DNA from: Desulfovibrionaceae bacterium
GTDB taxonomy: Bacteria; Desulfobacterota; Desulfovibrionia; Desulfovibrionales; Desulfovibrionaceae
Reading direction: 5' to 3'
DNA length: 58,581 nucleotides
Assembly: GCA_016932995.1 (NCBI GenBank)
Contig: JAFGBU010000044.1
Span: forward strand, 1-58,581
A model generated the notes under the pieces. That model saw nothing but the letters and a program-made list of their open reading frames with translations. It ran no database searches and had not been told where the DNA came from. This document shows positions 44,035-58,024 of the stretch, in pieces; positions within the stretch are counted from its first letter, which is position 1, and the number at the start of each line of letters is the position of its first letter. Both the position numbers and the translations under genes were made by a program.

Positions 44035-44106
44035 GCCGCCAACGACCCCGGCCCGGGCGCGTTTTTGCGCTGCGCAGGCCCTGATCCGTGCCCGGCCGGA
44101 GTTTGC

Positions 44107-45702
44107 ATGAGCATCCGCTTCGCCGCCCTGGGAACGATCTTTCTGGCCTTTGCCCTGATGATCGCGGCCGTGTACGCGGCCTCGCGCTATGTCCTTCTGC
44201 CCAGCTACCTGGAGATCGAGCGGACCGGGGCCGGGGACGACCTGGATCGGGCCCGGTTCGCCCTTCAGGGCGAGGTCCGGAACCTGGAGGTCTTCATCCG
44301 CGACTGGGCCTATTGGGACGAGACCTACGAGTTCGTGGCCTCGCGGGACGCGGCCTATCTGGCGGCCAACGCGCCCGCGAAGGTTTTTGTCGAGCAGGGC
44401 CTGGGGTTTCTCGGCTGCCTGGACCAGGCCGGGGCCCTTGTCTGGGGCCGGGCCCTTGATCCGGCCGCCAAGACCCTGGTCCCGTTGCCCGACGACCTTC
44501 GCGCCCGCCTGGCCCCGGGCTCGGACCTGGTGCCCGGCAGGTGGACCGAGCAGGTCTCGGGCCTGCTCAGGCTGTCCGGCGGGGACTTCATCTTCTCGGC
44601 CTGCAAGATACGCAGGACCGACTGCGACGGCCCGCCCAGGGGCTGCCTGGTCATGGCCCGGCCCCTGGACCGGGACCTGGTGCGGGAGATCGGCCGCCGG
44701 ACCCGTCTGGCCCTGATTTTGTACTCCAAGGACCGGGGCCCGATCCCGGCCTGGGTCCGGGCGGTCCTTGACGCCGAGCGGCCCGCGGCCCGCTTCGGGC
44801 TGCGCTGCTCGGCCGACGGCAGGTCCATGGTCGGGTACGCGGCCCTGGCGGACATCCACGGAGCGCCGGCCTTTGTCCTGGCCGCGGACCTGCCCCGGGG
44901 CGTCTTTGCCCTGGCCCTTACGGCCCTTGACGTCCATCTCTTGACCCTCGGCGTTCTGGGGCTTGTGTTCTGCGGCCTGGCCATGTTCCTGGTCGAGACC
45001 AGGGTCGTGGCCAGGATCAGGTCCCTGAGCGGCCAGGTCAGGCTGATCAAGGACCGGGCCCGGGGCGGGGCCGAGATCAGGGTCAGGGGCGCTGACGAGC
45101 TGGCCGGGCTGGCCACGGACATCGACCGCATGGTCCGCGACCTGGACGACAAGAACGCCGCGCTCGAACGCCTGACCGAGGACCTCTCCGAGGTCAACCG
45201 GAACCTCTATGAGCTGGCCAACACCGATGTCCTGACCGGGCTGACCAACCGCCGCCGGTTCTTCGAGGAGCTGGACGGCCGCATCGCCCACTTCAAACGC
45301 TACGGCCAGAGGTTCTGCCTGGCCATGTTCGACGTGGACCACTTCAAGAGGATCAACGACACCTTCGGCCACGCGGTCGGCGACGAGGTGCTCAAGGCCC
45401 TGTCGGCCGAGGCCAGGAGCGATCTGCGCGAGACGGACGTGGTGGGCCGCATCGGCGGGGAGGAGTTCGCCGTGCTTCTGCCCAACACCTCCCTGGACGC
45501 CGCGCGCGGCCTGTGCGAGCGGCTGCGCAAGGGGTTTGCGGCCTGCGTCGTGCGGACCGAGGCCGGCGAGGTCCGGTTCAGCGCCAGCTTCGGCCTGACC
45601 GAGTACCAGCCCGGCGAGGCCGCGGACGAGCTCATGAAGCGCGCGGACGAGCTGCTCTACCAGGCCAAGGACGCGGGCCGGAACTGCGTAAGGGCCGCGT
45701 AG
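44107..45702 (+). CDS. Membrane GGDEF diguanylate cyclase with CHASE4-like sensor
   Basis: A 531-residue protein. An N-terminal membrane segment (residues about 7-27) is followed by a periplasmic CHASE4-like domain containing EVFIRDWAYWDETYEFV, a second membrane helix near residue 285, a HAMP-like linker, and a C-terminal GGDEF domain with the active motif GGEEF. RETD lies five residues before GGEEF, the RxxD inhibitory site for product feedback. It makes c-di-GMP. The ATG at 44107 has GGAG upstream. Its last 104 bases recur in decayed form at 57887-57990. Confidence 0.9.
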   Translation: MSIRFAALGTIFLAFALMIAAVYAASRYVLLPSYLEIERTGAGDDLDRARFALQGEVRNLEVFIRDWAYWDETYEFVASRDAAYLAANAPAKVFVEQGLGFLGCLDQAGALVWGRALDPAAKTLVPLPDDLRARLAPGSDLVPGRWTEQVSGLLRLSGGDFIFSACKIRRTDCDGPPRGCLVMARPLDRDLVREIGRRTRLALILYSKDRGPIPAWVRAVLDAERPAARFGLRCSADGRSMVGYAALADIHGAPAFVLAADLPRGVFALALTALDVHLLTLGVLGLVFCGLAMFLVETRVVARIRSLSGQVRLIKDRARGGAEIRVRGADELAGLATDIDRMVRDLDDKNAALERLTEDLSEVNRNLYELANTDVLTGLTNRRRFFEELDGRIAHFKRYGQRFCLAMFDVDHFKRINDTFGHAVGDEVLKALSAEARSDLRETDVVGRIGGEEFAVLLPNTSLDAARGLCERLRKGFAACVVRTEAGEVRFSASFGLTEYQPGEAADELMKRADELLYQAKDAGRNCVRAA

Positions 45703-45706
45703 GGCC

Positions 45707-45762: not shown

Positions 45763-46770
45763 CTAGCAGATTCTTGGAAGCTGCTCGCCCTCGAGCATGT
45801 TGAGCAGCCGCCTTCCGCCGAGGCCGGTGACGAGCACGACCTTGCCCGGGTGGTGGTTGGTGACCGTGCCGATCTGGCCGGCCTCCCGGCCGAGGGCGTC
45901 CGCGCGCATGATCTCCAGGGCCTTTTGGGCCTGCTCCTGGGGCAGGATGCACAAAAACTTGCCTTCGTTGGCCAGGTACAGGGGGTCCAGGCCGAGCACC
46001 GCGCAGCCGCCGCGCACCTCGGGCCGCACCGGGATGTTGTTTTCCACCAGCTCGCAGCACACGCCCGAGGACTGGGCGATCTCGTTCAGGGTGCTGGCCA
46101 GCCCGCCCCGGGTCGGGTCGCGCAGCACGTGGATTTTCGGGACCCCGCGCACCAGCCTGACCAGCAGGTGGTTCAGGGCCGCGGAGTCGCTCTTGAGCTC
46201 CGAGGTGAAGTTCAGGCCTTCCCGCGTGCCCAGGATGGTCAGGCCGTGGTCGCCCATGGACCCGCTGACCAGGATGGCGTCGCCGGGCCTGGCCGACTCC
46301 CCGCTCGGAGCGGGGTCGGCGATGATCTCGCCCACGCCCGTGGTGTTGATGAACACCTTGTCCAGCGCGCCGCGCGGCACGACCTTGGTGTCTCCGGTCA
46401 CGATCTCCACGCCCGCGTGGCGCGCGGCCCGGCCCATGGACTCGGCGATGCGCTCCAGGTCGTCCCGGTCAAGGCCCTCCTCGATGATGAACCCGCAGGT
46501 CAGGTAGCGGGGAACGGCCCCGAGCATGGCCACGTCGTTCACCGTGCCGTGCACGGCCAGGGAGCCGATGTCCCCGCCGGGGAAGAAGATCGGGTCCACG
46601 GTGAAGCTGTCGGTGCTGATGGCCAGGGGGCCGTTGAGGTTGATCTGCGCGGCGTCGTTCAGCCGGTTCAGCTCAGGGTTGCCGAGGTGGCGCAGAAACA
46701 GTTCGGAGATGAGCCGCTGCGAGGCCCGGCCCCCGCTGCCCGAGTCAAGGAGTATCTTTTCGCCGTTCAT
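45763..46770 (-). CDS. hypE: [NiFe]-hydrogenase maturation protein HypE
   Basis: A 335-residue HypE. It begins MNGEKILLDSGSGGRASQRL, has the PurM-like ATP motifs (STDSFTVDPIFFPGGDIGSLAVHGTVNDVAMLGA) and ends PRIC, with the C-terminal Cys that carries thiocarbamoyl/thiocyanate in the family. With HypC and HypD it supplies CN to the Fe(CN)2CO unit. The ATG at 46770 starts two bases after the hypD stop. Last gene of a run behind the nitrogenase-like genes. HypF, which makes its substrate group, is not in the window. Confidence 0.94.
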   Translation of the reverse strand: MNGEKILLDSGSGGRASQRLISELFLRHLGNPELNRLNDAAQINLNGPLAISTDSFTVDPIFFPGGDIGSLAVHGTVNDVAMLGAVPRYLTCGFIIEEGLDRDDLERIAESMGRAARHAGVEIVTGDTKVVPRGALDKVFINTTGVGEIIADPAPSGESARPGDAILVSGSMGDHGLTILGTREGLNFTSELKSDSAALNHLLVRLVRGVPKIHVLRDPTRGGLASTLNEIAQSSGVCCELVENNIPVRPEVRGGCAVLGLDPLYLANEGKFLCILPQEQAQKALEIMRADALGREAGQIGTVTNHHPGKVVLVTGLGGRRLLNMLEGEQLPRIC

Positions 46771-46772
46771 GT

Positions 46773-47867
46773 CTAGCCGACCTGGTATTTGTAGTAGGCC
46801 GCGCAGCTGCCCTCTGTGGACACCATGCACGGACCCACGGGTTTGGCCGGGGTGCAGGCCTTTTCAAACAAGGGACACTGGTTGGGGTTGAGCTTGCCCT
46901 TCAAGACCTCGCCGCAGCGGCACCCCGGCAGGGGCGGGGTCTCCTGGACCTTGACCCCGAACTCGCGGCCGGCGTCGAATCTGGCGTATCTCTGCCTGAA
47001 CGCCAGGCCGCTGCCCGGGATCAGGCCCAGGCCGCGCCACAGGGCGTCGGCCGGCTCAAACACCTCGTACATGATCTCCAGGGCCCTGGGGTTGCCCTGG
47101 TCGGCCACCACCCGGCGGTAGAGGTTGGCGACCTCGGGCCGGCCCTGCCTGCGCCGCCGGGCGATGAACAGCAGGGCCCGGAGGATGTCCAGGGGCTCGA
47201 ACCCGGCCACCACTCCCTGCTTGCCGTACCTCTCGGCGATGAAGCCGTAGGGCGCGGTCCCGATGATCGTCGAGACGTGGCCGGGCAGGATGAAGGCGTC
47301 GATGTTGCAGCCCGGATCGTCCAGGAGCGCGCCGAGCGCGGGCGGCACGGTCTTGTGCAGGGCGAGCACGCGGAAGTTGTCCAGGTTCTGGTCCTCGGCC
47401 ATCTTGACCGTGGCCGCCACGGCCGGGGCCGTGGTCTCGAAGCCCACGCCGAGAAAGACCACCGTGTGGTTTGGGTTCTGCCGGGCCAGGGCCAGGGCCT
47501 CGAAGGGCGAGTAGAGCACCTTCACCCGGCCGCCCTCGGCCTGGGCCAGCTTGAGGCTGCGGCCCCTGTTTCCGGGCACGCGCATCAGGTCCCCGAACGT
47601 GGCAATGATGACCCTGTCGCGTCCGGCGAGCTCGATGAACGCGTTGACCTCGGATTCGTGGGTCACGCAGACCGGGCAGCCCGGTCCGCTCAGGTGCACG
47701 ATCCCTTCCGGCAACAGCGAGCGCAGGCCGCTTTGGAAGATGGACACGGTGTGCGTTCCGCAGACCTCCATGAAGCGCAGCTCGCCGTCCAACTCCTGCC
47801 TCAGCCTGTCCAGGACACCGCGGCACAGCTCGGCATCGTGGAACTGCTCCAGAATCTTCAGGCCCAT
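46773..47867 (-). CDS. hypD: [NiFe]-hydrogenase maturation protein HypD
   Basis: A 364-residue HypD. Conserved cysteine motifs are present: MEVCGTHT near residue 35, GPGCPVCVT near residue 65, and the C-terminal cluster CRCGEVLKGKLNPNQCPLF...CTPAKPVGPCMV with the FeS-binding cysteines. GVGFETTAP lies near residue 148. HypD holds the [4Fe-4S] cluster in the HypC-HypD complex where Fe(CN)2CO is built. The ATG at 47867 lies four bases after the hypC stop, behind GAGGGA. Confidence 0.95.
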   Translation of the reverse strand: MGLKILEQFHDAELCRGVLDRLRQELDGELRFMEVCGTHTVSIFQSGLRSLLPEGIVHLSGPGCPVCVTHESEVNAFIELAGRDRVIIATFGDLMRVPGNRGRSLKLAQAEGGRVKVLYSPFEALALARQNPNHTVVFLGVGFETTAPAVAATVKMAEDQNLDNFRVLALHKTVPPALGALLDDPGCNIDAFILPGHVSTIIGTAPYGFIAERYGKQGVVAGFEPLDILRALLFIARRRRQGRPEVANLYRRVVADQGNPRALEIMYEVFEPADALWRGLGLIPGSGLAFRQRYARFDAGREFGVKVQETPPLPGCRCGEVLKGKLNPNQCPLFEKACTPAKPVGPCMVSTEGSCAAYYKYQVG

Positions 47868-47871
47868 GGGT

Positions 47872-48120
47872 TCATCCCTCGGCCTGCGCGTCCGGGGCCG
47901 GGCAGGCGGTCCGGCGCATGAGCCGGATGCTCTCCTCGGCCTGGCCGCGGTCCAGGACGCGCAGGGCGAACCCGGCGTGCACAATGAGAAACTCGCCCGG
48001 GGCAGGGGTCTCGGGCAGCAGCATCAACGAGGCCCGGATCGTGGTTTGGCCCTGGTCCACCCGGCAGGTGGCGACTCCATCCTCAATGCTCATGACCTCA
48101 GCGGGAACAGCAAGACACAT
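47872..48120 (-). CDS. hypC: [NiFe]-hydrogenase maturation chaperone HypC
   Basis: An 82-residue HypC/HupF protein. Translation from the ATG at 48120 gives MCLAVPAEVMSI, placing the essential Cys at position 2. GGAGGAAGCC is the binding site. An in-frame start four codons upstream would bury that Cys and is rejected. It chaperones Fe(CN)2CO with HypD and normally delivers it to a hydrogenase large subunit; the only large-subunit homologue in the window is at 52587-54224. Confidence 0.95.
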   Translation of the reverse strand: MCLAVPAEVMSIEDGVATCRVDQGQTTIRASLMLLPETPAPGEFLIVHAGFALRVLDRGQAEESIRLMRRTACPAPDAQAEG

Positions 48121-48134
48121 GGCTTCCTCCATGC

Positions 48135-48156
48135 AACGCGGCGCAGGCGCCGCGTT
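48135..48156. promoter_or_regulatory. Perfect 10-bp stem hairpin before hypC
   Basis: AACGCGGCGC, AG, GCGCCGCGTT forms ten perfect pairs between the nitrogenase-K-like stop and the hypC binding site. There is no T run on the minus strand, so it is not a standard terminator. It could be an mRNA processing or stability element dividing the nif-like and hyp parts. Confidence 0.5.
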
Positions 48157-48186
48157 GGCTGGTTGTTGCAGGCGGATTGCCCCGGT

Positions 48187-49401
48187 TCAGCCCTGCCCGG
48201 GCCCGAAGAGCTGCGCGCCGAGATACTCGTGCCCCTTGTCCACGGCGTACTCATAGGGCAGGTCCCAATACATGCGCGCGCTCATGGCGATGTGCGGCAG
48301 CCGGATGAACTTGACCTCCCGGGTCAGCAGGGCCTGGTAGCAGGGGTCGGCCACGATGCAGTCCACGTCCGGATCGTTCATCAGGGCCGCGATGTCCTGC
48401 TCGGACTCGGTGTCCACGTCGGCCGGGCCGCGCTCGATCAGCGTGCCCGAGCAGGCCTCGGACCCCTTGAACAGCATTTCGCTGGGCACCACCGAGACCA
48501 CGTCCACCCGGGGGACGCCGAAGTCGTGGCGCAGGCAGCGCTGCACGCCGTAGCCGAGCACGGGCTCGCCGACGACCAGGGCGTGCCTGAAGGCCGCAGG
48601 CCGGGTCACGGCCGGCGCGGGCCCGGGCTGCTCGCCGCGCAAAAGGGCCAGGAAGTCGTCGCGGCCGCGCAGGCCCACGGGCAGGCCCAGGACATAGGGG
48701 ATGCCGTAGGCGGCGTACATGTGCTCGGCCAGGGCCAGGCCGCTCGTGGAGATAACTGCGTTGCGCTCCGCGGCCGGGGCCCTGCGCAGCCCTTCCAGGG
48801 GGTCGGCAACGCCTGGCCGGGGCGAGGAGAGCACGCCCAGCAAGGTGAACCCGGCCCGCTCGATGGCCGCGAGCAGGGGCTCGATGCGCTCCTCCCTGCC
48901 CGTGGACAGGTGGATGGCCCCGAGCACGTTGACCCCCTTGGGGTGTTTGGACGCGGCGGGGGCCATCAACTTGTCGGCCAGGGCCAGAAAGGCCTTGGAC
49001 GCGCCCTCGGGGTAGGGCTCGGAACCGGCCGTGGGGACCATGAACACCGGGATCGAGGCGCGGCCCTCCAGGGTCCGGGCAAAGCCCTTGAGGTCGGTGC
49101 CGATGATCTCGGAGATGGGCGTGCCCGCCAGGCACACGAAGTCCCGCTTCAGGCCGTTGGCCACCCGGGCGATGTTCTCGATGAACTTGTCGTCGTTGCC
49201 CAGGATGACGTCCATCTCCAGAAGGCCCGCGCCCACCACCGTGGCCGGGCCGCGGTACCAGCGGGGCTCGTCCTCGATGTTGATGTGCCACGCCCCGCCG
49301 GCCGGGCCGTAGACCACGACCAGTCCGCCGAAGGCGTAGAGCGCCGAGCTGACCCCGAAGTAGCCCGTGGCCAGGGGGAGTGTCTTGTGGTATTTCTTCA
49401 T
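48187..49401 (-). CDS. Nitrogenase-like component 1, K-type subunit
   Basis: A 404-residue oxidoreductase/nitrogenase component 1 homologue. The phrase DFVCLAGTPISEIIGTDLKGF (Cys90) matches the third P-cluster Cys region of NifK-type proteins (C-x-A/P-x-I-IG-D). The two earlier cysteines of NifK are missing: LPLATGYFGVSSALYAFGGL and YGPAGGAWH lie where Cys70 and Cys95 of NifK would fall. It would pair with the D-like protein encoded upstream. The ATG at 49401 has AAGGTG upstream; a GTG three codons earlier is possible. Substrate unknown. Confidence 0.8.
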   Translation of the reverse strand: MKKYHKTLPLATGYFGVSSALYAFGGLVVVYGPAGGAWHINIEDEPRWYRGPATVVGAGLLEMDVILGNDDKFIENIARVANGLKRDFVCLAGTPISEIIGTDLKGFARTLEGRASIPVFMVPTAGSEPYPEGASKAFLALADKLMAPAASKHPKGVNVLGAIHLSTGREERIEPLLAAIERAGFTLLGVLSSPRPGVADPLEGLRRAPAAERNAVISTSGLALAEHMYAAYGIPYVLGLPVGLRGRDDFLALLRGEQPGPAPAVTRPAAFRHALVVGEPVLGYGVQRCLRHDFGVPRVDVVSVVPSEMLFKGSEACSGTLIERGPADVDTESEQDIAALMNDPDVDCIVADPCYQALLTREVKFIRLPHIAMSARMYWDLPYEYAVDKGHEYLGAQLFGPGQG

Positions 49402-49443
49402 GCGTAACACCTTTGCATAGTTGCAGAACTGTCGGGCGCAGGC

Positions 49444-50742
49444 CTAGATGAGCAGGTTGTGTCTGTATATCCAGTCGTAGTTGCCGACCGGACGCCTCAG
49501 GGCCTCACTGGTCTGCTCCAGCATCCAGAGCGTGTTTTCGTAGCCGTACTTCTGCTCCTGATAGCGCGACAGGGGCACATTGACCGCGTTGACGCAGAAG
49601 GCGCCCGCGTCCACGCCGTAGGCGACGTCCAGGTGGTCAAAGGCCGCGGTCCGGCCGCACAGGGCCGGGTGGGATACGTTGTAGACCTGGATGTCGGGCT
49701 TCAGGCCGCGCAGGCGCTCGATGACCTCCCACTCGTAGGGCTTGATTGCGCCGCGGGCGAACACGGCCTCCACGTCCAGCCCGGACTCGACCAGGAACGC
49801 GGCCAGCTCGAACGGGCTGCCGTTGATGCTGCAGCCCACGGCCAAGGCCTTGCCGCGCAGCTCGGCCAGGAGGGGCTCCGCGGCCCGGCGCGCGGCCTGC
49901 TCAAGGCCGGAGGTGTCCAGGGTCCTGCCCACTGCGGCCGCGATCTTCTCATAGTGGTCCGCAATGGTTGAAAACCCGTAGGAGGTGGGCGCGAACACGG
50001 CCGGCATGCCCATGGCCTTGTGCATCTTGGCGCCCAGCCCGTTGGCCAGGGGGTGCAGGACCACCGAGGCCCGGGCATGGGCCATGCGGCCGAACTGGTC
50101 GAGCGAGGAGCAGAGCGGAATCTGCATCACGCTCTTAAGGCCTGCGGCGCGCAGGACCCGGTACAGCTCGCCGGACTCGGAAAGGGGCATGAACGTGCCC
50201 AGGACGTTCAGGGCGTTCGGGTCCGGCGCGCGGGTCTCGTGCTTCAGGAACTCGAAGAACGAGGTGTAGGCCGAGGTGAACGGCGAGTCCTTGAGCCCGA
50301 TGGTGATCGGGGCCATGGCCCCGAGGATGATCCTCTTGCCCGTGGCCTGCTCCAGCCGGTTGATGAGCGCGCTGAAGTCCGTGCCCAGGACGTAGTCCGG
50401 GCAGCCCACGATGAGGAAGACGACCTTTTCGGGCCGCTGGGAGGCGATGTCCATGACCCCTTTCTCGACCTTGGCCAGGTGCTTGCCCATGGTCATGTCC
50501 AGCTCGGACACGCAGAGCATGTAGAAGCGGTCGGTGAACCCCCGGGCATGGGCCATGAACGCCGAGTGGCGCAGGCAGGCGGACGGCCCGGCCATGACGC
50601 TTATGGACTCGGGCAGCAGCAGGCAGGTCTCGATGACCCCCCAGCCCGCGAGGTTGGGTCCCACGCCCTCCAGGGGGGCAAAGGGGAAGTCCGCCCTGTT
50701 GCGCAGCCTTTCAATACTGATTCGAGCCTGATCCAAAAGCAT
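49444..50742 (-). CDS. Nitrogenase-like component 1, D-type subunit
   Basis: A 432-residue component 1 homologue with the three cysteines expected at the D-subunit cluster site: C40 (ETCLLLPES), C56 (GPSACLRHS) and C114 (VGCPDYVLGTD). The position corresponding to the FeMo-cofactor Cys of NifD appears, by eye, to be His230 (VVLHPLANG), so a FeMo-type cofactor is not expected. It is shorter than NifD (about 480). Starts at ATG 50742 behind AAAGGA; 39 bases follow the NifH-like stop. It probably forms a heterotetramer with the next gene's K-like product and takes electrons from the NifH-like protein. Confidence 0.8.
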   Translation of the reverse strand: MLLDQARISIERLRNRADFPFAPLEGVGPNLAGWGVIETCLLLPESISVMAGPSACLRHSAFMAHARGFTDRFYMLCVSELDMTMGKHLAKVEKGVMDIASQRPEKVVFLIVGCPDYVLGTDFSALINRLEQATGKRIILGAMAPITIGLKDSPFTSAYTSFFEFLKHETRAPDPNALNVLGTFMPLSESGELYRVLRAAGLKSVMQIPLCSSLDQFGRMAHARASVVLHPLANGLGAKMHKAMGMPAVFAPTSYGFSTIADHYEKIAAAVGRTLDTSGLEQAARRAAEPLLAELRGKALAVGCSINGSPFELAAFLVESGLDVEAVFARGAIKPYEWEVIERLRGLKPDIQVYNVSHPALCGRTAAFDHLDVAYGVDAGAFCVNAVNVPLSRYQEQKYGYENTLWMLEQTSEALRRPVGNYDWIYRHNLLI

Positions 50743-50784
50743 GCGGGTGTCCTTTCAGCGGTCTTGCGGCGCGCGGCGGCCGGG

Positions 50785-51552
50785 TCAGGCGGCGTTGCGT
50801 TCGGCCCTGAGGTTTACGATGGTCCGGGCCAGCTCAAAGAAGCGCAGCGAGGTGGGCAGGGTGCGGTCGCCCTCCACGATGGTCTTGCCCTGCTCCTCAA
50901 AGGCGTGGATGGCCCGGTCGCGCGGGATCACGCCGATGATCGAGGTCTGCATGTGGCGGGCGAACTCCTCCACCCGCTCGACCTCGTCGACCATGTCCCG
51001 GCAGTTGAGGATCAGCCCGCCCAGCTCGGCGTAGTTGCGGTCGGCGAAGTTGCGCAGGGCCAGGATGATGTTCTTGGCCGCGAGCAGGGCCATCTTCTCG
51101 CCCGAGGTGACGATGACCACCTTGTCGGCCAGGCCTTCGCGCATGGGCACGGCGATGCCGCCGCACACGATGTCGGCCAGGATGTCGTAGAGCACGATGT
51201 CCGGCTTGAAGGCGGCGTAGGCCTCCATCTCGTCCAGGAGCTCAAAGGCGGTGAGCATGCCGCGGCCGAAGCAGCCGACCCCGGGGGTCGGCCCGCCCAC
51301 CTCCATGCAGACCACGCCGCCCACGCCCTTTTTGGCGATGGCCTCCAGGGTCTGCGGCCGGCCCTTTTCCTGGAGGTACTGCAGGATCGGCGGCGGGCTG
51401 GTCCCGCCCAGCAGGTTGATGGTCGAGTCGGTCTTGGGATCGCAGCCCAGCTGCATCACGTTGTAACCCTGGAGCCCGAGCGCGGCGGAAATGCCGGACG
51501 CCACCGTGGATTTGCCGATGCCGCCCTTGCCGTAGATGGCTACCTTGATCAA
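50785..51552 (-). CDS. Nitrogenase-like iron protein (NifH/BchL/CfbC family)
   Basis: A 255-residue ATPase reductase. The P-loop is GKGGIGKS at residues 8-15, GCDPKTDST follows at 36-44, and the bridging [4Fe-4S] cluster cysteines are C94 in GGPTPGVGCFGRG and C130 in DIVCGGIAVP. It is shorter than NifH (about 290). The start is TTG at 51552 with GGAGG six bases upstream, overlapping the HydE-like stop in TTGA. It should feed electrons, with ATP hydrolysis, to the D/K-like complex next to it. Confidence 0.9.
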   Translation of the reverse strand: MIKVAIYGKGGIGKSTVASGISAALGLQGYNVMQLGCDPKTDSTINLLGGTSPPPILQYLQEKGRPQTLEAIAKKGVGGVVCMEVGGPTPGVGCFGRGMLTAFELLDEMEAYAAFKPDIVLYDILADIVCGGIAVPMREGLADKVVIVTSGEKMALLAAKNIILALRNFADRNYAELGGLILNCRDMVDEVERVEEFARHMQTSIIGVIPRDRAIHAFEEQGKTIVEGDRTLPTSLRFFELARTIVNLRAERNAA

Positions 51553-52559
51553 GATCGTCCTCCTTGCATCTTCAATGAATCGCCCCGGCCCTGGTCCAGG
51601 GTCCTTTTGGCCCGCTTGAGCACCCGCTTGGCCTCCTCGATGGACACGTAGCGCTTCCTGGTGGTGATCTGGAACTCGTATTCGATCTTGTCGTTTCTGC
51701 TCTTCAGGAACGGGTTGCAGTTGGGCATGATCACGTTGGCCCCGCCGTGCACAAAGGCCTGGTACTGGCCCTGTTCGGGCGACAGGGTGGCCACGGTGTT
51801 GGCCGCGGCCAGGTGCGTGTTCCTGGTCACTATCCTGGTCAGGGCGAAGACCCGCAGCATCAGGTCCATGTCCCCGGGCCGCTCGTCGCGCAGCGGGGTC
51901 TGGTGGTGGGGGATGAACGGCCCGATGTTGATCATGTCCGGCTGGAAGGACTGGAAGAACGCGATGTCCTCGCACAGGTCCTCCAGGGTCTGGCCGGGCA
52001 GGCCCACGATGTTGCCCACCCCGACCTGGAAGCCGATCTCGCGCAGGTAGTCGATGGTTCCCAGCCGGTCCTCCAGGCGCAGGCCCGGGCGCATCCTGGA
52101 GTACAGCTCCGGGTTCATGGTCTCGTGCTTCATCAGGTACCGGCCGGCCCCTGCGTCCTTGAACGCGCGCAGCTCGTTTCGGGGCCGCTCGCCCAGGCTC
52201 AGGGTTATGGCCACCTCGGCCTGGGAGAGGATGCGCTCGATCACCGAGCAGAGCATGGCGCAGGTGTAGTGGTAGTCCTCGCCCGACTGGAGGACCACGG
52301 TCCTGAGCCCGGCCTGGGCAATGGACAGCGCGGTCTGGACGATCTGGTCCCCGGTCATCCGGAAGCGTTTGGCCTCGGCGTTGTCCTTGTACAGGCCGCA
52401 GTAGAGGTCGTTTCTGCAGCAGTGGTTGGAGAAATGGACCACCCCGCGCAGCTGCGCCTTGTCGCCGCAATGGGCCCTGCGCACCTGGTCGGCCTCGCGG
52501 AACAGGGCGGCCTGGTTGTCCGCGTCCCGCAGCGCGGCAAGGATTGCTTCTCGATTCAT
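51549..52559 (-). CDS. HydE-like radical SAM homologue with Asp in the cluster motif
   Basis: A 336-residue protein clearly homologous to HydE: FSNHCCRNDLYCGLYKDNAE, VVLQSGED near residue 90, TLSLGERPRNEL, HETMNPELYSRMRPG, GLPGQTLEDL, GPFIPHHQTPL and GGANVIMPN all follow HydE order. The CX3CX2C motif is changed: C47, then Asp51 where the second Cys should be, then C54; an extra Cys (C48) lies beside the first. The codons read TGC TGC AGA AAC GAC CTC TAC TGC, so more than one base change is involved. Whether it binds a [4Fe-4S] cluster or does radical chemistry is open. It sits in the place a hydE gene might hold after hydF, separated by the hydrogenase-like gene. Confidence 0.85.
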   Translation of the reverse strand: MNREAILAALRDADNQAALFREADQVRRAHCGDKAQLRGVVHFSNHCCRNDLYCGLYKDNAEAKRFRMTGDQIVQTALSIAQAGLRTVVLQSGEDYHYTCAMLCSVIERILSQAEVAITLSLGERPRNELRAFKDAGAGRYLMKHETMNPELYSRMRPGLRLEDRLGTIDYLREIGFQVGVGNIVGLPGQTLEDLCEDIAFFQSFQPDMINIGPFIPHHQTPLRDERPGDMDLMLRVFALTRIVTRNTHLAAANTVATLSPEQGQYQAFVHGGANVIMPNCNPFLKSRNDKIEYEFQITTRKRYVSIEEAKRVLKRAKRTLDQGRGDSLKMQGGRS

Positions 52560-52586
52560 GGTTTCACTCTATGGCTGGTTTGGCCG

Positions 52587-54224
52587 CTACCTGGCGTTCA
52601 CGGTGATCATTTGGCCGGAGTCGGCGTCCTGGACCAGGAGCACGCAGGCGTTGCAGGGGTCAAAGGCGTGCACCGTGCGCAGTATCTCCCGGGGCCGGAG
52701 CGCGTCGGCCACCGGGGTGTCCATGAGCGCCTGCTCCAGCGGGCCGCGCACTCCGTCGGCGCTGCGCGGGGAGAAGTTCCACAGCGAGGGGATCAGGTAG
52801 TCGTGGCGCGCGATCCTGTTCTTACGCACCGAGATGGTGTGGGTCAGCGCCCCCCGGGCGACCTCCACCCGGCCCGTGCCCAGGCCCGAGCAGGGTAGGG
52901 TCCAGGGCCGGCTCATGGTCCTGTCGCCGTGGGCAAGCGAGGCGTCCAGGCTGTCGAGCCAGCCCATGGCGGCCTGGGCAAGGACAGCGGACTCGATGCC
53001 CCGGGCCAGGAGCCGCCCCAGGGTGGAGTTCATGGCCCCCAGGCCCAGATTTGCCGGGCCCAGGGTCTTGTCCAGCATCTCCCGGACCGCGACTCGGCCT
53101 TGGGCGCAGGCCCCAAGCACCCGGGCCAGCGGCCCGACCTCGCAGGCCTGTTCGCCGTGGCGGGGCGCGGCCAGCCATTCAAAGGCCCCCTCGGGCCAGC
53201 GGCAGGACGGGCCGTTTGCGCCGAAGCGCAGTTGGTATCTGTCGGCGTGCTCCGGCGTCCAGGACTGGTCGCAGAGCTCCGTGACCTGATCGGGATGCGC
53301 CGGGTGGACCTGGAGGGTTGTTTCGCCCCCCGCGGTTTCAGCCATGGTGAACACCCCGCCCGGGAACAGCCTGCCGTCCCCGGAGGGCTGCGAGAAGTCG
53401 CCCCAGGCCAGGAAGGTCCCGGTGCGGCCGATGCCCGCCCATTCGGGATAGGCGCTGGCGATGCGCGCCAGGTCCGGGGCAAAGGTCCGGCAGACAAAGT
53501 CCCGGCAGTCCTGCATCAGGACCCGCAGGCGGTCTCGGACCAGGGGGCCGAGGTCCATGTCCTCGGACAGGCCGCCGACCTGATAGGCCGGATGTCGGCT
53601 GTCCGAGCAGCCCAGCGAATCAAGGATTTTGGCCAGCTTGGCGCGCGCCTCTAGCGAGGCCTGGCCATGGCCGTGGACCAGCAGATGGAGCTCGTCCGGG
53701 GCCTGGCGCGCGGGATGATCAGGGCTCGCGGCGCTGAACACGTCGGCCCCGCCCTGGGCCAGGGCCCGCAGGCGGGCCTGCGCGTTTTGAAAGAATCCGG
53801 CCCTGTTGCCCGAGGGCCCGGCCAGCCGCGCGGCCTTTGCCGGGTCGGCCCGCAGGGCGCGGTCCACGCCCAGCCAGTCCGAGAGGTAGAACTGATAGAC
53901 ATGGACCAGATGGTCCTGGATGCAGCGCACGGCCTGCACCAGGCTGCGCACCAGGCGCGCGTTGCGGGGCGGGACCACGCCCGCCAGGTCCTCGATGGCC
54001 CGCACCGCGGCCAGGGCGTGCGCGTCGTTGCAAAGGCAGTGCGCACGCTGGACGAAACGCGGCGCGCCGCCCTCGTCCAGACCCCCTTCAAGGAGCAGGT
54101 CCGGGTTGCGGACCATCTTGCCGGTGCTCCAGACCTCGTCCACGCGGCCGTTGCAAAGGCGCACGCAAAGGACGAAGGTGTTGCCCGCGCAGACGATGTC
54201 TTTGTCTGCCAGCTTGTTGCTCAT
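52587..54224 (-). CDS. [NiFe]-hydrogenase large-subunit homologue with altered metal site
   Basis: A 545-residue homologue of the [NiFe]-hydrogenase large subunit. The region FVQRAHCLCNDAHALAAVRA (residues 57-76) aligns with the L1 motif QRICGVC..HA, but the first Cys becomes His62, with Cys63 and Cys65 following. The proton-transfer Glu of the V-E-G-H motif is replaced (CAGNTF near residue 13). The active-site Arg region EVARGALTH and PSLWNFSPR are kept. DPCNAC (522-527) is kept and is followed by an 18-residue tail in which Leu stands where the cleavage His/Arg should be. No small subunit gene is nearby. Start ATG 54224. It may be a modified metalloprotein or a cofactor scaffold, not a standard hydrogenase. 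Confidence 0.85.
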   Translation of the reverse strand: MSNKLADKDIVCAGNTFVLCVRLCNGRVDEVWSTGKMVRNPDLLLEGGLDEGGAPRFVQRAHCLCNDAHALAAVRAIEDLAGVVPPRNARLVRSLVQAVRCIQDHLVHVYQFYLSDWLGVDRALRADPAKAARLAGPSGNRAGFFQNAQARLRALAQGGADVFSAASPDHPARQAPDELHLLVHGHGQASLEARAKLAKILDSLGCSDSRHPAYQVGGLSEDMDLGPLVRDRLRVLMQDCRDFVCRTFAPDLARIASAYPEWAGIGRTGTFLAWGDFSQPSGDGRLFPGGVFTMAETAGGETTLQVHPAHPDQVTELCDQSWTPEHADRYQLRFGANGPSCRWPEGAFEWLAAPRHGEQACEVGPLARVLGACAQGRVAVREMLDKTLGPANLGLGAMNSTLGRLLARGIESAVLAQAAMGWLDSLDASLAHGDRTMSRPWTLPCSGLGTGRVEVARGALTHTISVRKNRIARHDYLIPSLWNFSPRSADGVRGPLEQALMDTPVADALRPREILRTVHAFDPCNACVLLVQDADSGQMITVNAR

Positions 54225-54625
54225 GGCCTTGCCTGACGCGGCCTTGCGATCCGCCGGCACAGGGGTTGACCGGGTCGGCCGGTTTTTCCGGGACCCCGGG
54301 CCGCGGCCCGGGGTGACCCGCGGCCTCGCATCGGGAAGTCCCATCCGGACACGCCTTGGCTTTCAACGCGCCTGTGCGTCGCCGACCCGCAAAGGCCGCA
54401 CGCCTCCTCGTGAAAATAGCGAGGCTTTTTATCCGCTGAAAGAGTACGAAATTTTATTATGTCATTCTGTCGTGTTATCTTTCAAAAAATCTTGTTATCA
54501 TATTTATTTCTTTCTTGTAAAGGGCCGGGGTTTCGGAGCGCTTGACAGCCCGGGGAAAAAGGCTTCCTGCCCGAGGCCAACCCGGCGTCCGGGCCGCGGC
54601 CGTCATCGGGCCCGGCCCGGCGCGG
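54225..54625. other. Spacer between hydF and the hydrogenase-like gene
   Basis: 401 bases with no gene. The stretch 54410-54530 is AT-rich in contrast to its surroundings and holds the promoter candidate described separately. The GC-rich part next to the gene start (54225-54400) is probably leader. Confidence 0.55.
54456..54485 (-). promoter_or_regulatory. Candidate promoter of the hydrogenase/nitrogenase-like operon
   Basis: On the minus strand TTGAAA (54485-54480), 18 bases, then CATAAT (54461-54456), followed by AAAATTT. It would start a transcript about 225 bases before the large-subunit-like ATG. No sigma-54 GG-N10-GC box typical of nif promoters was found in this spacer. Confidence 0.45.
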
Positions 54626-55825
54626 TCAGAGCCCAAAGGGCCGCAGCACCCGGGGCAGCAGCCCCTGGACCTTGGAGATGGCCACCCCGTAGTTGGTGAT
54701 CGCCACCCCCCGGCGATGGCACTCCCTGATCCTCCTGAGCATCTCCATGCGGTTCAGCATGCACGCCCCGCAGTGGACCGCGAGCTTGTAGCGCTCCAGG
54801 TCGTCGGGAAAATCGTGGCCCGCGTAGAACTCGAAGCGCAGCTCCTTGCCCGTGTACTGGCTGAACCAGCGCGGAATCTTGACCCGGCCGATGTCGTCGG
54901 CCACGGGATGGTGGGAGCAGGCCTCGGCGATGAGCACCCGGTCCCCGTCCGCAAGGTCGTCGATGGCCGCGGCCCCGGCCGCGAGCTTGGGCAGGTCGCC
55001 CTTGTAGCGGGCAAAGAGGATGGAAAAGGTCGTCATCGGGACCGCGTCCGGCACGTCGCCGGCCACCTTGAGCACCACCTGGGAGTCCGTGACCACCAGG
55101 GCCGGGGGCCGCCGCAGACTGGCCAGGGCCTCCTCGATCTCGCGTTCCTTGACCACCACGCCCACGGCGTCGCAGTCGAGTATCTCCCGCAGCACCTGGA
55201 CCTGGGGCAGGATCAGGCGGCCCTTGGGCGCGGCCAGGTCGATGGGCACCACGCAGACCACCCAGTCCCCCTCGGTGACGCAGTCGCTGACCAGGGCGGG
55301 CTCCTGCTTGTACTCCAGGGGCGCCATGTCTATCAGGGCCTGCTTGAGCCCGTCCACGCCCTGCCCGGTCTTGGAGGACACCGGCATGAACCGGATATTT
55401 GTCTGTCGGCAGTAGGCGATCTCCTCCTCCAGGGGCGCGCGGAGGTCGCTCTTGTTGGCGGCCAGGATGACCGGGATTTCGAGCCCTTGGACCTCCTCCA
55501 AAAGCTCCTTTTCCGGCCCTCCCAGGCCCTGCTCCCCGCAGACCAGGATGCACAGGTCGGCGCGCATGAGAATCTTTCTGGTCGCCTTGACCCGCAGGGC
55601 CCCGAGCTCGCCGACATCGTCCAGCCCGGCCGTGTCAAAAAAGGTCACCGGGCCAAGGGGCAGGAGCTCATAGGGCTTGGCCACCGGATCGGTGGTCGTG
55701 CCGGGCGTGTCCGAGACTATGGCGATGTCCTGGCCGGTCACGGCGTTGATCAACGACGACTTGCCCGCATTCCTGCGGCCGACGATGGCGATTACCAGGC
55801 GGACGCCGCGTGGCGCTTGCTGCAT
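54626..55825 (-). CDS. hydF: [FeFe]-hydrogenase maturation GTPase HydF
   Basis: A 399-residue HydF. GTPase motifs are GRRNAGKSS (G1), TPGTTTDP, DTAGLDD (G3) and NKSD (G4). The C-terminal cluster site CSH (C303, H305) and HCGAC (C352, C355) fits the HydF pattern CxHx(44-53)HCxxC. HydF is the scaffold that loads the [2Fe] unit made by HydE and HydG onto HydA. ATG at 55825 behind GGAGAAG. hydG and hydA are not in the window. aspA upstream. Confidence 0.95.
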   Translation of the reverse strand: MQQAPRGVRLVIAIVGRRNAGKSSLINAVTGQDIAIVSDTPGTTTDPVAKPYELLPLGPVTFFDTAGLDDVGELGALRVKATRKILMRADLCILVCGEQGLGGPEKELLEEVQGLEIPVILAANKSDLRAPLEEEIAYCRQTNIRFMPVSSKTGQGVDGLKQALIDMAPLEYKQEPALVSDCVTEGDWVVCVVPIDLAAPKGRLILPQVQVLREILDCDAVGVVVKEREIEEALASLRRPPALVVTDSQVVLKVAGDVPDAVPMTTFSILFARYKGDLPKLAAGAAAIDDLADGDRVLIAEACSHHPVADDIGRVKIPRWFSQYTGKELRFEFYAGHDFPDDLERYKLAVHCGACMLNRMEMLRRIRECHRRGVAITNYGVAISKVQGLLPRVLRPFGL

Positions 55826-55862
55826 GTCTTCTCCTCGGCTTGAGGCCCTGCGCCGCGCAGGG

Positions 55863-55948
55863 CCGGGGCCCTTGTCTTTGATCCCTGATCGGCCCGACGG
55901 TCCGGGGCCCTTGTCTTTGATCCCTGATCGGCCCGACGGTCCGGGGCC
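55863..55948. repeat. 39-bp direct repeat between hydF and aspA
   Basis: Two identical 39-base copies (55863-55901 and 55902-55940) plus a partial third of about eight bases (55941-55948), in the short spacer before hydF. Each copy contains GGGGCCC and TGATCGGCC words. No function is evident. Confidence 0.9.
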
Positions 55949-55952
55949 GGGG

Positions 55953-57386
55953 TCATTTCCCGTCCCTTGGCGGTCTCAGGCCGTCATGCTCCCCGGGGCT
56001 TGAGCCGAGCTTGCGCATGCGCTTCGGGGAGAGCAGCTCGGCTATGGTCCGGGCGTCGGCAACGCCCAGGTCCATGACCACTTGGGCCACGGTCTTGTCC
56101 TCGGCCTCTGCCCGGCGCACGATGTCCTCCACCTGCTGATAGCCGAGCGCCGGGACGAGCACGGTGGCCAGGGCCTTGCTCTGGTCCACGAGCTCCCGGC
56201 AGCGCCCGGGCCTGGCCTTGAGGCCGCGCACGCATCTCTGGTCAAAGAGCCGGGTGGCGTTGCACAGCAGGACCAGGGAGTCGATGAACTCGTGGGTCAG
56301 CAGGGGCAGCAGATGGTTCAGGTCCAGCTGGCCCATGCCCACGCACAGGGTGACGCATTGGCCGGCGGCCATGACCTTGAGCGCGACCTGGGCCACGGCC
56401 TCGGGCATGACCGGGTTGATCTTCCCGGCCATGACGCTGGATCCGGCCTGCAAAGGAGGCAGGTCCAGCTCGCCGAGCCCGCAGTCCGGGCCGCTGGCCA
56501 GCAGCCTGAGGTCGTTCGCGATCTTGAGCAGGTTGGCCGCGCAGGCGCTGAGCATGCCCATGGCCTCGGCGAAGCAGTCCATGTTCTGGGTGGCGTCGAT
56601 CAGATTTTCGCTCCTGGATACGGGCAACCCGGTGATGCGCTTGAGGTTTTCCACCACGCGCAGGATGTACTCCCGGGGCGCGCCCAGGCCCGTGCCGACC
56701 GCAGTGCCGCCGAGGTTCACCTGCTTGATGCGCTCGCGGCACTTGAATATCCGCCAGCGGTCCCTGGCCAGGGCCTCGGCATAGGCCCCGAACTCCATGC
56801 CCAGGGTCATGGGCACGGCGTCGCGCAGCTGGGTGCGGGCGACCTTGAGGATGTCGGCGAACTCCTGCTCCTTGCGCTGCATGTTCTCCTGCAGCCGGGC
56901 CAGGTTGGCCTCCAGCTCCTTGAGCAGGTTGAGCCCGGCCACCTTGAGGGCGGTGGGAAAGACGTCGTTGGTGGACTGGTGCAGGTTGAGGTGCATGAAC
57001 GGGTGCACCGTGCCGTAGTCGCCCTTTTCCGCGCCCAGAAGCTCGTTGGCCCGGTTGGCCAGGATCTCGTTCATGTTCATGTTGGTCGAGGTGCCGGCGC
57101 CGCCCTGCAGGGGGTCCACCAGGACGTGCCCGTGCAGGCGGCCGGCCTCCATCTCCCGGCAGGCGGCCATGATGGCCTGGGCCTTGGCCTCCTCGATGTG
57201 CCCGAGCTCGGCGTTGGTCATGGCGCAGGCGCGTTTCACCTGGGCCAGGGCGATGATGAACTGTGGCCGCCAGCGCTGCCCGGAGAGGGGAAAGTTTTCC
57301 TGGGCGCGCAGGGTGTGGATGCCGTAATAGGCCTTGCGGGGCAGGGCGCGCTCGCCCAGGGCGTCGGACTCGATTCTCTTGGGCAT
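55953..57386 (-). CDS. aspA: Aspartate ammonia-lyase
   Basis: A 477-residue AspA. The superfamily signature GSSVMAGKINPV near residue 320 is the GSSxMPxKxNP motif with Pro-Ala changed to Ala-Gly. GGAGTSTNMNMNEILANRA near residue 95 and HPFMHLNLHQSTNDVFPTA near residue 128 match aspartase/fumarase active-site segments. It deaminates aspartate to fumarate. aspA next to hydF is an arrangement known in Desulfovibrio. ATG at 57386 behind AAGG. Class II fumarase is a less likely alternative. Confidence 0.9.
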   Translation of the reverse strand: MPKRIESDALGERALPRKAYYGIHTLRAQENFPLSGQRWRPQFIIALAQVKRACAMTNAELGHIEEAKAQAIMAACREMEAGRLHGHVLVDPLQGGAGTSTNMNMNEILANRANELLGAEKGDYGTVHPFMHLNLHQSTNDVFPTALKVAGLNLLKELEANLARLQENMQRKEQEFADILKVARTQLRDAVPMTLGMEFGAYAEALARDRWRIFKCRERIKQVNLGGTAVGTGLGAPREYILRVVENLKRITGLPVSRSENLIDATQNMDCFAEAMGMLSACAANLLKIANDLRLLASGPDCGLGELDLPPLQAGSSVMAGKINPVMPEAVAQVALKVMAAGQCVTLCVGMGQLDLNHLLPLLTHEFIDSLVLLCNATRLFDQRCVRGLKARPGRCRELVDQSKALATVLVPALGYQQVEDIVRRAEAEDKTVAQVVMDLGVADARTIAELLSPKRMRKLGSSPGEHDGLRPPRDGK

Positions 57387-57886
57387 GGCCTTTTTCCGGC
57401 GGCATTGCCGCGCCTCGGACCGATCCGTTGGCCGCCATACAAGCGGCGGCGTTCCTCGACCCTCGGACCGAGCGCACGCGCTCCACGGCCAGGGCCGGCC
57501 TTTCAGACAACCGCGGCCTTGTCCGTCGGCTCACCGGCGGTGACGGGTGTCGAAACGCCAAAGGGGCCGTTGTCTCAACCCGCCGCTCCCGTTCCGAAAT
57601 TCCCCAAAGGACCTTGGTCTAGGGAATGAAACGCTGAGGCCGGCCAGGGCCGCGCGGGCAGGTCCTGTTGTCCTTGCCCTGAGGTCCCAAGGCCCCTTTC
57701 CGCGGGCTGCCTGTCTTGAGGCGCGTTGTTTCGGGACAGTAAAAGGCCAAGTGTTATATGTCAAGATTTAGTAGCACGAATGGTTTATCTAATTTAAAAT
57801 CGTATTAACCTGCCCCGGCCGGGTCCCTGAGGTCGGGCCGGTGTTTTGGGGCCTTATTTGCATTTGGCGGGGGACGGCTTGCCTGG
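57387..57886. other. Intergenic region upstream of aspA
   Basis: About 500 bases without a supported gene. 57750-57810 is AT-rich and includes the aspA promoter candidate; the GC-rich rest has open frames without starts or family matches. Confidence 0.5.
57736..57764 (-). promoter_or_regulatory. Candidate aspA-hydF promoter
   Basis: On the minus strand a perfect TTGACA (57764-57759), 17 bases, then TACTGT (57741-57736). The -10 match is weak and the leader to aspA would be about 340 bases. Sequence match only. Confidence 0.35.
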
Positions 57887-57990
57887 CCGAGTACCAGCCC
57901 GGCGAGGCCGCGGACGGGCTCATGAAGCGCGCGGACAAGCTGCCCTGCCAGGCCGAGGCCGCGGGCCGGAACTGCGTAAGGGCCGCGTAG
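57887..57990 (+). pseudogene. Decayed duplicate of the GGDEF gene 3' end
   Basis: This 104-base stretch matches the last 104 bases of the diguanylate cyclase gene (45599-45702) with only about seven differences, including the stop codon and a few bases past it. It lies on the same strand as the original, with no matching upstream part, start or promoter, so it is a non-functional duplicate fragment. Confidence 0.85.
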
Positions 57991-58024
57991 GGCGGACCAG
58001 GGCCCAGGCCGTTGCCGGCCGTTT

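Follow-up and report, generated by a model that had tools for sequence, protein, structure and literature searches.

What could a single bacterial locus do that combines genes for building the Fe(CN)2CO unit of [NiFe] hydrogenases, a protein resembling the large subunit of such an enzyme, a homologue of the maturase HydE and a nitrogenase-like set of three proteins? The locus lies in a contig of 58,581 nucleotides (JAFGBU010000044.1, here called the window) from a Desulfovibrionaceae bacterium, one of the 49 contigs of a genome of 2.48 Mb that is 99.49% complete (GCA_016932995.1, G000 in this study). An earlier interpretation made from the window alone, the sequence-only reading, had placed eight co-directional genes at 45763-54224 and had suggested either a new reductase or a system that builds or uses an Fe-CN/CO-type centre. 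From the analysis reported here, I conclude with good confidence that the locus is a maturation system for the H-cluster of [FeFe]-hydrogenases that is independent of HydG. Comparative genomics supports the conclusion that it goes together with HydA, HydF and HydE and that it largely replaces HydG. All eight genes are present as placed, on the minus strand, and two more, HydF and AspA, which the sequence-only reading did not include, lie upstream on the same strand. The ten-gene block and its surroundings are as follows:

55953-57386, minus strand: AspA, aspartate ammonia-lyase (NF008909, 609.9 bits, cut-off 510)
54626-55825, minus strand: HydF, H-cluster maturation GTPase/scaffold (TIGR03918, 547 bits, cut-off 325.55; HydF dimer and tetramer domains)
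54451-54485, minus strand: promoter-like site upstream of the large-subunit-like gene (consensus match only)
52587-54224, minus strand: [NiFe]-hydrogenase large-subunit-like protein (PF00374, 333 bits)
51549-52559, minus strand: HydE homologue, here called HydE* (TIGR03956, 265.5 bits, cut-off 254.6)
50785-51552, minus strand: NifH-like ATPase, NflH (PF00142, 254 bits)
49444-50742, minus strand: NifD-like protein, NflD (PF00148, 93 bits)
48187-49410, minus strand: NifK-like protein, NflK, with the signature DEPRW (PF00148, 83 bits)
47872-48132, minus strand: HypC (PF01455, 67.5 bits; TIGR00074, 56.2 bits, cut-off 48)
46773-47873, minus strand: HypD (TIGR00075, 432 bits)
45763-46773, minus strand: HypE (TIGR02124, 443.5 bits)
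45593-45705, plus strand: left copy of a direct repeat, 113 nt, the 3' end of the GGDEF gene at 44065-45702 (sequence comparison)
57881-57993, plus strand: right copy of the repeat, 113 nt, 94% identical to the left copy and 12,288 nt apart from it

HydF and AspA, together with the [FeFe]-hydrogenase of the genome, point to H-cluster maturation. AspA can act in vitro as the source of ammonium for the dithiomethylamine bridge, and aspA is found near hyd genes (PMC11736057). The hydrogenase in question, HydA, is encoded on contig C48 and has three H-cluster motifs, TSCCPAW, MPCIAKKYE and EIMACPGGCVNGGGQP. Downstream of it I recognised by eye HydB, a small subunit with a Tat signal, and further on an open reading frame (ORF) that resembles the TM1266 regulator. 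The genome has no HydG over the cut-off of 312 bits; the single match to the HydG model is HydE* itself, at 42 bits. The hydG remarked on as missing from the window was not found in the genome either.

The distribution of the locus over the class supports this conclusion. I used 348 genomes, the own genome counted among them, and a NifD-like query that gave some match in 108 of these, where those no better than E 4e-11 were assigned to nitrogenase or other related proteins. The 19 strong matches, own genome included, form type A, and ten genomes at 25-29% identity form type B. HydA, detected via PF02906, is present in 208 of the 348 genomes, HydF over its cut-off in 178 and HydG over its cut-off in 155; HydF and HydG states were assigned from E-values, and the tally covers 208/208 HydA, 155/155 HydG and 176/178 HydF. 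Every genome with the locus has HydA and HydF (29/29 each, HydF at E 1e-100 or better) as well as HydE over the cut-off (29/29), compared with HydA in 179/319 and HydF in 147/319 of the others. Among the genomes with both HydA and HydF, HydG over the cut-off is lacking in 21 of the 29 with the locus versus 8 of the 140 without it (p 4e-14, kinship between genomes uncorrected). Setting aside eight HydG matches near the cut-off (E 2e-95 to 2e-99), these numbers become 24/29 and 9/140 (p 4e-17, kinship likewise uncorrected); the one such match that was read, in G135, is a paralogue of 709 amino acids with a membrane-like part. In the genera g33 and g37 together (53 genomes), all 45 genomes with HydA have either a strong HydG or the locus and all eight without HydA have neither, and in the nine genera with the locus, no HydA-negative genome carries HydG or the locus.

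A HydG-like protein of 709 amino acids with an N-terminal membrane-like part and the CX3CX2C and CX2CX22C motifs of HydG is encoded in a type-B Desulfovibrio (L206:2787-4916, minus strand). HydG-like matches of similar strength occur in genomes of genus g18 that have no HydA (G120, G159, G170).

The core of the large-subunit-like gene, HydE*, H, D and K occurs in 19 of the 348 genomes, own genome included, and this conservation rules out a degenerate or chance cluster. All 18 relatives of type A have the complete core, with one large-subunit-like gene cut by a contig end, and their NflD is 67-76% identical to that of the own genome. In the stretches taken from these relatives, up to 20 kb long and some of them cut, HypC is present in 12, HydF and AspA in 7, HypD in 5, HypE in 5 and HydA in 4, and AspA adjoins HydF in 7 of the 18. 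One relative (L068) shows the order AspA-HydF-LSU-HydE*-H-D-K-HypC-HydA on one strand, where LSU is the large-subunit-like gene. The order in type B is HydA-HydB-TM1266-like-HydE-HydF-HDK-HDK-HypF-HypC-HypD-HypE, with two HDK sets and a canonical HydE; HydE and HydF are found in all ten of these loci, HydA in 8, and HypC and HypD in 8. The HypF of a type-B Desulfovibrio scores 753 bits against a cut-off of 466. The known HydEFG maturation (with AspA and TM1266) shares with the locus the HydE and HydF families, AspA, the client HydA/HydB and, presumably, the product. It differs in that the locus is mostly without HydG and has HDK and Hyp genes instead, and in that the type-A HydE has an aspartate for the middle radical-SAM cysteine.

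None of the ten type-B loci has a large-subunit-like gene, whereas the HydE, HydF, Hyp and HDK genes remain together with [FeFe]-hydrogenase in them, and the suggestion of a new reductase or hydrogenase-like end enzyme is not supported; the other suggestion, that the locus builds an Fe-CN/CO-type centre, finds support. One could still argue for the large-subunit-like protein as a new enzyme in its own right, with an Fe-CN/CO centre built by Hyp, HydE* and HDK, as its gene is present in 19/19 type-A loci (one cut by a contig end) and its protein has kept the fold and three invariant metal-site cysteines. However, type B lacks the gene, only four of the 78 loci described next have it, and HydA, HydF, AspA and the HydG pattern would be left unaccounted for; I regard this explanation as very improbable.

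Outside the class, a named collection of 84,980 species was scanned with the NflK alignment, using one pattern around DEPRW. The scan gave 337 stretches and 336 relatives, of which the best 80 were retained as 78 loci, and all counts given here refer to this best part of the 336; 12 of the 78 are apparently from genomes that are also in the class set. The loci come from Lachnospiraceae (isolates G41, AC2031, NE2001 and LC2019 among them), Ruminococcus FC2018, Selenomonas, Megamonas and Mogibacterium, and further from Coriobacteriaceae, Lentisphaeria, a spirochaete, Desulfovibrio, Desulfofervidaceae and Thermodesulfatator. Type B thus extends to gut Bacillota, Lentisphaeria and spirochaetes. 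The second type-B H protein (NflH2) is found in 71 of the 78 stretches, NflD1 in 69, NflK1 in 69, HypF in 67, HypC in 64, HypD in 61 and HypE in 53, and of the genes linked to Hyd, TM1266 in 55 (cut-off 61 bits; 104 bits in Ruminococcus FC2018), HydE in 44, HydF in 32 and the large-subunit-like gene in 4. All nine core genes of type B are present in 48/78, and HydE, HydF or TM1266 in 66/78. HydG was found in none of the 78 fetched stretches. A genome-wide search for HydG, covering 50 of the 78 genomes (7 of them among the 12 apparently shared with the class set), found none over the cut-off in 48, including all 43 that are outside the class set; the two exceptions are Desulfovibrio with HydG-model matches at 333 and 326 bits, one of which is apparently G135, the genome whose match was read. 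In a Candidatus Desulfofervidaceae genome (L133:211-3434), two successive HydA-like genes are followed by HydB, TM1266, AspA, HydF, HydE*, HDK and HypF, a type-A form without a large-subunit-like gene in the stretch.

Does the nitrogenase-like set perhaps belong to a known enzyme? The set is complete, as had been seen in the window, with NflH, NflD and NflK all present. Against the curated Nif models, H reaches 273 bits versus 394, and the best D and K matches reach 24.7 and 37.6 bits with a cut-off of 505. NifB gives 20 bits in the own genome, a trace in agreement with the missing nifB of the window, and there is a single strong NifH-family gene; the NifD-like query returns only NflD itself. 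Nitrogen fixation can thus be rejected, as the sequence-only reading had already supposed. For CfbCD the values are 265 versus 402 bits for CfbC and 24.6 versus 268 for the CfbD model on NflK, and a K protein is present here; for the protochlorophyllide and chlorophyllide reductases DPOR and COR, H has 164 versus 345, NflD 38 versus 420 and NflK 27 versus 490. An F430 or chlorophyll reductase is rejected as well, since the scanned HDK proteins stay below the CfbC/CfbD and Bch cut-offs.

In a tree of 44 NifH-like proteins, CfbC and Isr sequences not among them, the NflH proteins of type A pair with those of the second type-B HDK set as sister groups (100/99), and the first type-B set forms a separate clade (100/100); support for joining all Nfl sets is low (93/67). 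NifH and chain 9fmg_D, the 9fmg structure being one that I take to be Mar, form a group apart from NflH (97/85). NflH thus lies outside this group, and the scanned H, D and K proteins are below the Nif, CfbC/CfbD and Bch cut-offs. The reference branches of the D/K tree are very long, and this tree was used for statements within groups only. In it, the K protein of a Treponema plasmid, which carries DEPRW, groups with the second type-B K (96/94), indicating that the HDK family is wider than the task proposed here. DEPRW itself is found in 19/19 type-A NflK and in 140 of the 144 NflK of the 78 named loci. A plasmid with the whole locus was not found among the matches listed for the queries NflH, NflK, NflD2 and HydA, and the NflH and NflK plasmid matches that were inspected belong to other HDK families. 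On plasmids of Sporomusa termitida (L125:11995-15267) and Treponema saccharophilum (L215:12003-15176), a related HDK set lies beside iron ABC transporters, with no Hyd or Hyp gene in the stretch.

These last sets bear on a different explanation, in which the locus encodes a group-IV reductase of the BHDK type (as are Mar, Isr and Nfa) that would convert a small molecule; HydE* would serve as its B partner, and the Hyp and HydF genes would be accidental neighbours. BHDK sets have been described (PMC11423573), a radical-SAM gene stands immediately ahead of H-D-K in type A, the best match of NflD in the Protein Data Bank (PDB) is 9fmg/9d9u (6.8e-7), and the HDK sets of Sporomusa and Treponema occur without Hyd genes. 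Group-IV systems (CfbCD, MarHDK, IsrBHDK) indeed share with the locus a NifH-like ATPase and a NifD/NifK-like pair, CfbCD being without K. However, the Nfl proteins form clades of their own, NflK has DEPRW and the context is that of a hydrogenase; the radical-SAM gene scores above the equivalog cut-off for HydE, and HydE, HydF, the TM1266 regulator and HypFCDE recur with HDK across several phyla. NifB, on which Mar depends, is a trace or absent in nine of the 29 genomes (G000, G089, G314, G287, G129, G130, G135, G139 and G140), so that a cluster made by NifB is not needed in those nine. As the HydG pattern would also be left unexplained, a BHDK-type reductase seems improbable. With the tetrapyrrole reductase DPOR (BchLNB) the locus shares the HDK layout and the small number of cysteines, and it differs in having no tetrapyrrole genes in the block. 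NflD has two cysteines conserved in both types, C56 and C114 (the alignment of type A with the second type-B set, B2, leaves out the fused B2 ORF of G139, whose B2 NflK was also left out), and the aspartate D47 within the DEPRW of NflK is invariant, which resembles the aspartate-ligated [4Fe-4S] cluster between the subunits of DPOR.

Two proteins of the type-A block have altered metal sites, as the sequence-only reading had stated for the own genome. The cluster motif of HydE* is C-x3-D-x2-C in 19/19 type-A proteins, with C47, D51 and C54 invariant and the middle radical-SAM cysteine replaced by aspartate; the protein therefore fails the CX3CX2C motif although PF04055 matches. The same motif is found in the HydE of three Desulfofervidaceae/Desulfobacterales loci, and HydE from type B and from the gut retains CX3CX2C wherever the pattern is readable. 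In 10 of the 19 type-A genomes, including the one-contig genome G095, HydE* is the sole HydE-like protein above 150 bits. In the large-subunit-like protein (n=18, the gene of G302, cut by a contig end, being left out), the first N-terminal cysteine is replaced in 17 of the 18 by His, Ala, Ser or Asn, with His in the own protein, while the second N-terminal cysteine and both C-terminal cysteines are invariant (18/18), and the histidine of the protease site is replaced in all 18. Judged by what is established about [NiFe] maturation, the sequences suggest that most of these proteins may have lost the nickel site and kept the cysteines that bridge to iron. The AlphaFold model (pLDDT 84; the metal site is not part of it) has a normal fold, and its top PDB match is 1yq9, presumably the D. 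gigas hydrogenase, with which it shares the fold at 34% identity. It differs from 1yq9 in the two replaced residues and in having no small-subunit gene in the block; the profile scan found no hydrogenase small-subunit family among the ten block proteins, which confirms the lack of a small subunit next to the large-subunit homologue. With an altered metal site and no small subunit alongside, a working [NiFe] hydrogenase is rejected.

Could the block nevertheless serve some other hydrogenase, such as Ech or a group 1 enzyme, through a modified form of Fe(CN)2CO or [NiFe]-type maturation, with the [FeFe] genes nearby by chance? HypCDE are present, and the own genome does encode a normal, full [NiFe] large subunit elsewhere, on contig C21. 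Where scanned, HypC, HypD and HypE (and HypF in type B) score above the curated cut-offs, a feature in common with the HypCDEF system for [NiFe] hydrogenases. However, the block is linked to [FeFe] genes, the profile scan found neither HypA nor HypB among its ten proteins, and the Hyp genes are often a second copy: another HypD is present in the own genome (G000:C12), and in 8 of the 10 type-B genomes. A full-length [NiFe] large subunit was not seen in 8/10 type-B genomes, several of them incomplete. Considering also the constant linkage with HydE, HydF and TM1266, I find such a maturation for another hydrogenase barely credible.

As to the block as a genetic unit, the NifH-like gene starts with the TTG of a TTGA that overlaps the stop of HydE*, as described before. 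The promoter-like consensus ahead of the large-subunit-like gene occurs as two overlapping sites in 12.5 kb, where 0.8 are expected, and judging from this site, AspA and HydF may be on a separate transcript. Two tandem copies of 39 nt (87% identical) lie between the AspA and HydF genes (window 55851-55928). The two copies of the 113-nt repeat bracket the ten genes; they look like the trace of an insertion, and the block may have arrived as a single unit.

How could these genes make an H-cluster? Three CO and two CN ligands sit on the two irons of the H-cluster, against one CO with two CN in the Hyp unit, so that CO must be supplied or made. HypE, with HypF, which in type B is in the locus itself, would make cyanide from carbamoyl phosphate, and HypCD would assemble Fe(CN)2CO in the manner known from [NiFe] hydrogenases. 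This unit may then, in type A, be taken up and held by the large-subunit-like protein. NflH would feed electrons, driven by ATP, into NflDK, which probably has a simple [4Fe-4S]-type centre and could reduce the Fe unit or CO2 in order to provide the extra CO. Nitrogenase is able to reduce CO2 to CO, and low-potential reduction is typical of nitrogenase-like enzymes. HydE* or HydE would then join the units, and HydF would add the amine bridge, for which AspA would provide the ammonium, and load HydA. I infer each of these reactions, and their order, from the observed genes, their linkage, the absence of HydG and the altered sites.

In the known pathway, tyrosine is the source from which HydG builds an Fe(Cys)(CO)2(CN) unit (PMC11736057), and Fe(CN)2CO is produced by HypCDEF (PMC9431212). 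No description of the gene set, and no characterised pathway with this gene order, was found among the matches listed in an open-licence full-text library, in which most subscription papers are missing, in agreement with the earlier statement that no such system has been described. Five of eight Clostridium acetogens were reported to have HydE and HydF and no HydG by known motifs, HypCDEF being present in all eight and HypA/HypB missing in five, and the hyp locus numbers given for them point to an F-C-D-E order like that of type B (PMC9431212). In a few species, hydrogenase genes occur without maturases (PMC3226654), whereas a review states that HydE, HydF and HydG are present in all microbes with [FeFe]-hydrogenase (PMC6212873). 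A paper on gut [FeFe]-hydrogenases does not mention HydE, HydF or HydG in its main text (PMC12578642).

Several observations weigh against a HydG-independent H-cluster maturation. HydG and the locus are present together in five of the 19 type-A genomes, and three of the ten type-B genomes have a HydG-like match just over the cut-off. Both a strong HydG and the locus are lacking in nine of the 169 genomes with HydA and HydF, and likewise in four HydA genomes of g25. Moreover, 29 of the 208 genomes with HydA, near-complete ones among them, have no HydF, HydG or locus, so that a working route cannot be concluded from HydA alone. Three HydA genomes without a known maturase were examined (G065, G276 and G222, at L091, L092 and L093), and the HydA motifs are intact in G065 and G276. 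In the named loci, searched as stretches and not genome-wide, only 13/78 have any HydA match and 9/78 a HydA with H-cluster motifs; these nine are all from Desulfovibrio and kin or Desulfofervidaceae, none from Bacillota. In addition, HypD and HypE are missing from many type-A loci, all ten type-B loci do without the supposed carrier, and NifB is over the cut-off in 12 of the 29 locus genomes. In G134, HydF is split into two ORFs 1.9 kb apart (L075:3973-4878 and 6773-7183), apparently a broken or interrupted gene. HydE* counts against this conclusion too, because it lacks one radical-SAM cysteine, and such changes abolished maturation in the HydE of C. acetobutylicum (PMC9431212). The case for the large-subunit-like protein as a carrier of the Fe(CN)2CO unit is a weak one, because the encoded tail is normal for a precursor, the histidine of the protease site is replaced by Arg in 7/18 proteins, and that of G234 retains the first N-terminal cysteine. 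Finally, the reaction assigned to NflHDK is a guess.

Some of these points would fit an accessory or repair system for the H-cluster, in which an unrelated or atypical, unrecognised protein, or free CO and CN, takes the place of HydG. The five genomes with both HydG and the locus and the nine with neither could be seen in this light, and PMC9431212 cites about 1% activation by HydE and HydF alone and proposes atypical HydG-like genes, capture of the ligands by HydE and HydF, or other mechanisms. However, the either-or pattern of HydG and the locus with HydA is strict in g33 and g37, and the own genome has no second match to the HydG model, and I therefore give little credence to an accessory role. 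The HydG-independent maturation of the H-cluster remains the explanation that I favour.

A more far-reaching idea, which I put forward tentatively and which may well turn out wrong, is that the H-cluster has a second origin that does not involve tyrosine. Cyanide would come from carbamoyl phosphate via Hyp, and the extra CO from CO2 or from ligand remodelling by an ATP-driven nitrogenase-like enzyme; in one lineage, the large subunit would be a nickel-free carrier, one Fe-CN-CO building block would serve [NiFe] and [FeFe] hydrogenases alike, and many gut anaerobes would use the route. If true, a widespread route free of HydG would overturn the statement that HydEFG are universal, as made in PMC6212873, and it could explain the acetogens and gut bacteria that have no typical HydG. 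It would also give nitrogenase-like enzymes a new kind of task and join the assembly of [NiFe] and [FeFe] hydrogenases. The locus would then offer a testable case for a biological source of CO in the anaerobic assembly of hydrogenases, and possibly a new toolkit for the production of [FeFe]-hydrogenases in other hosts.

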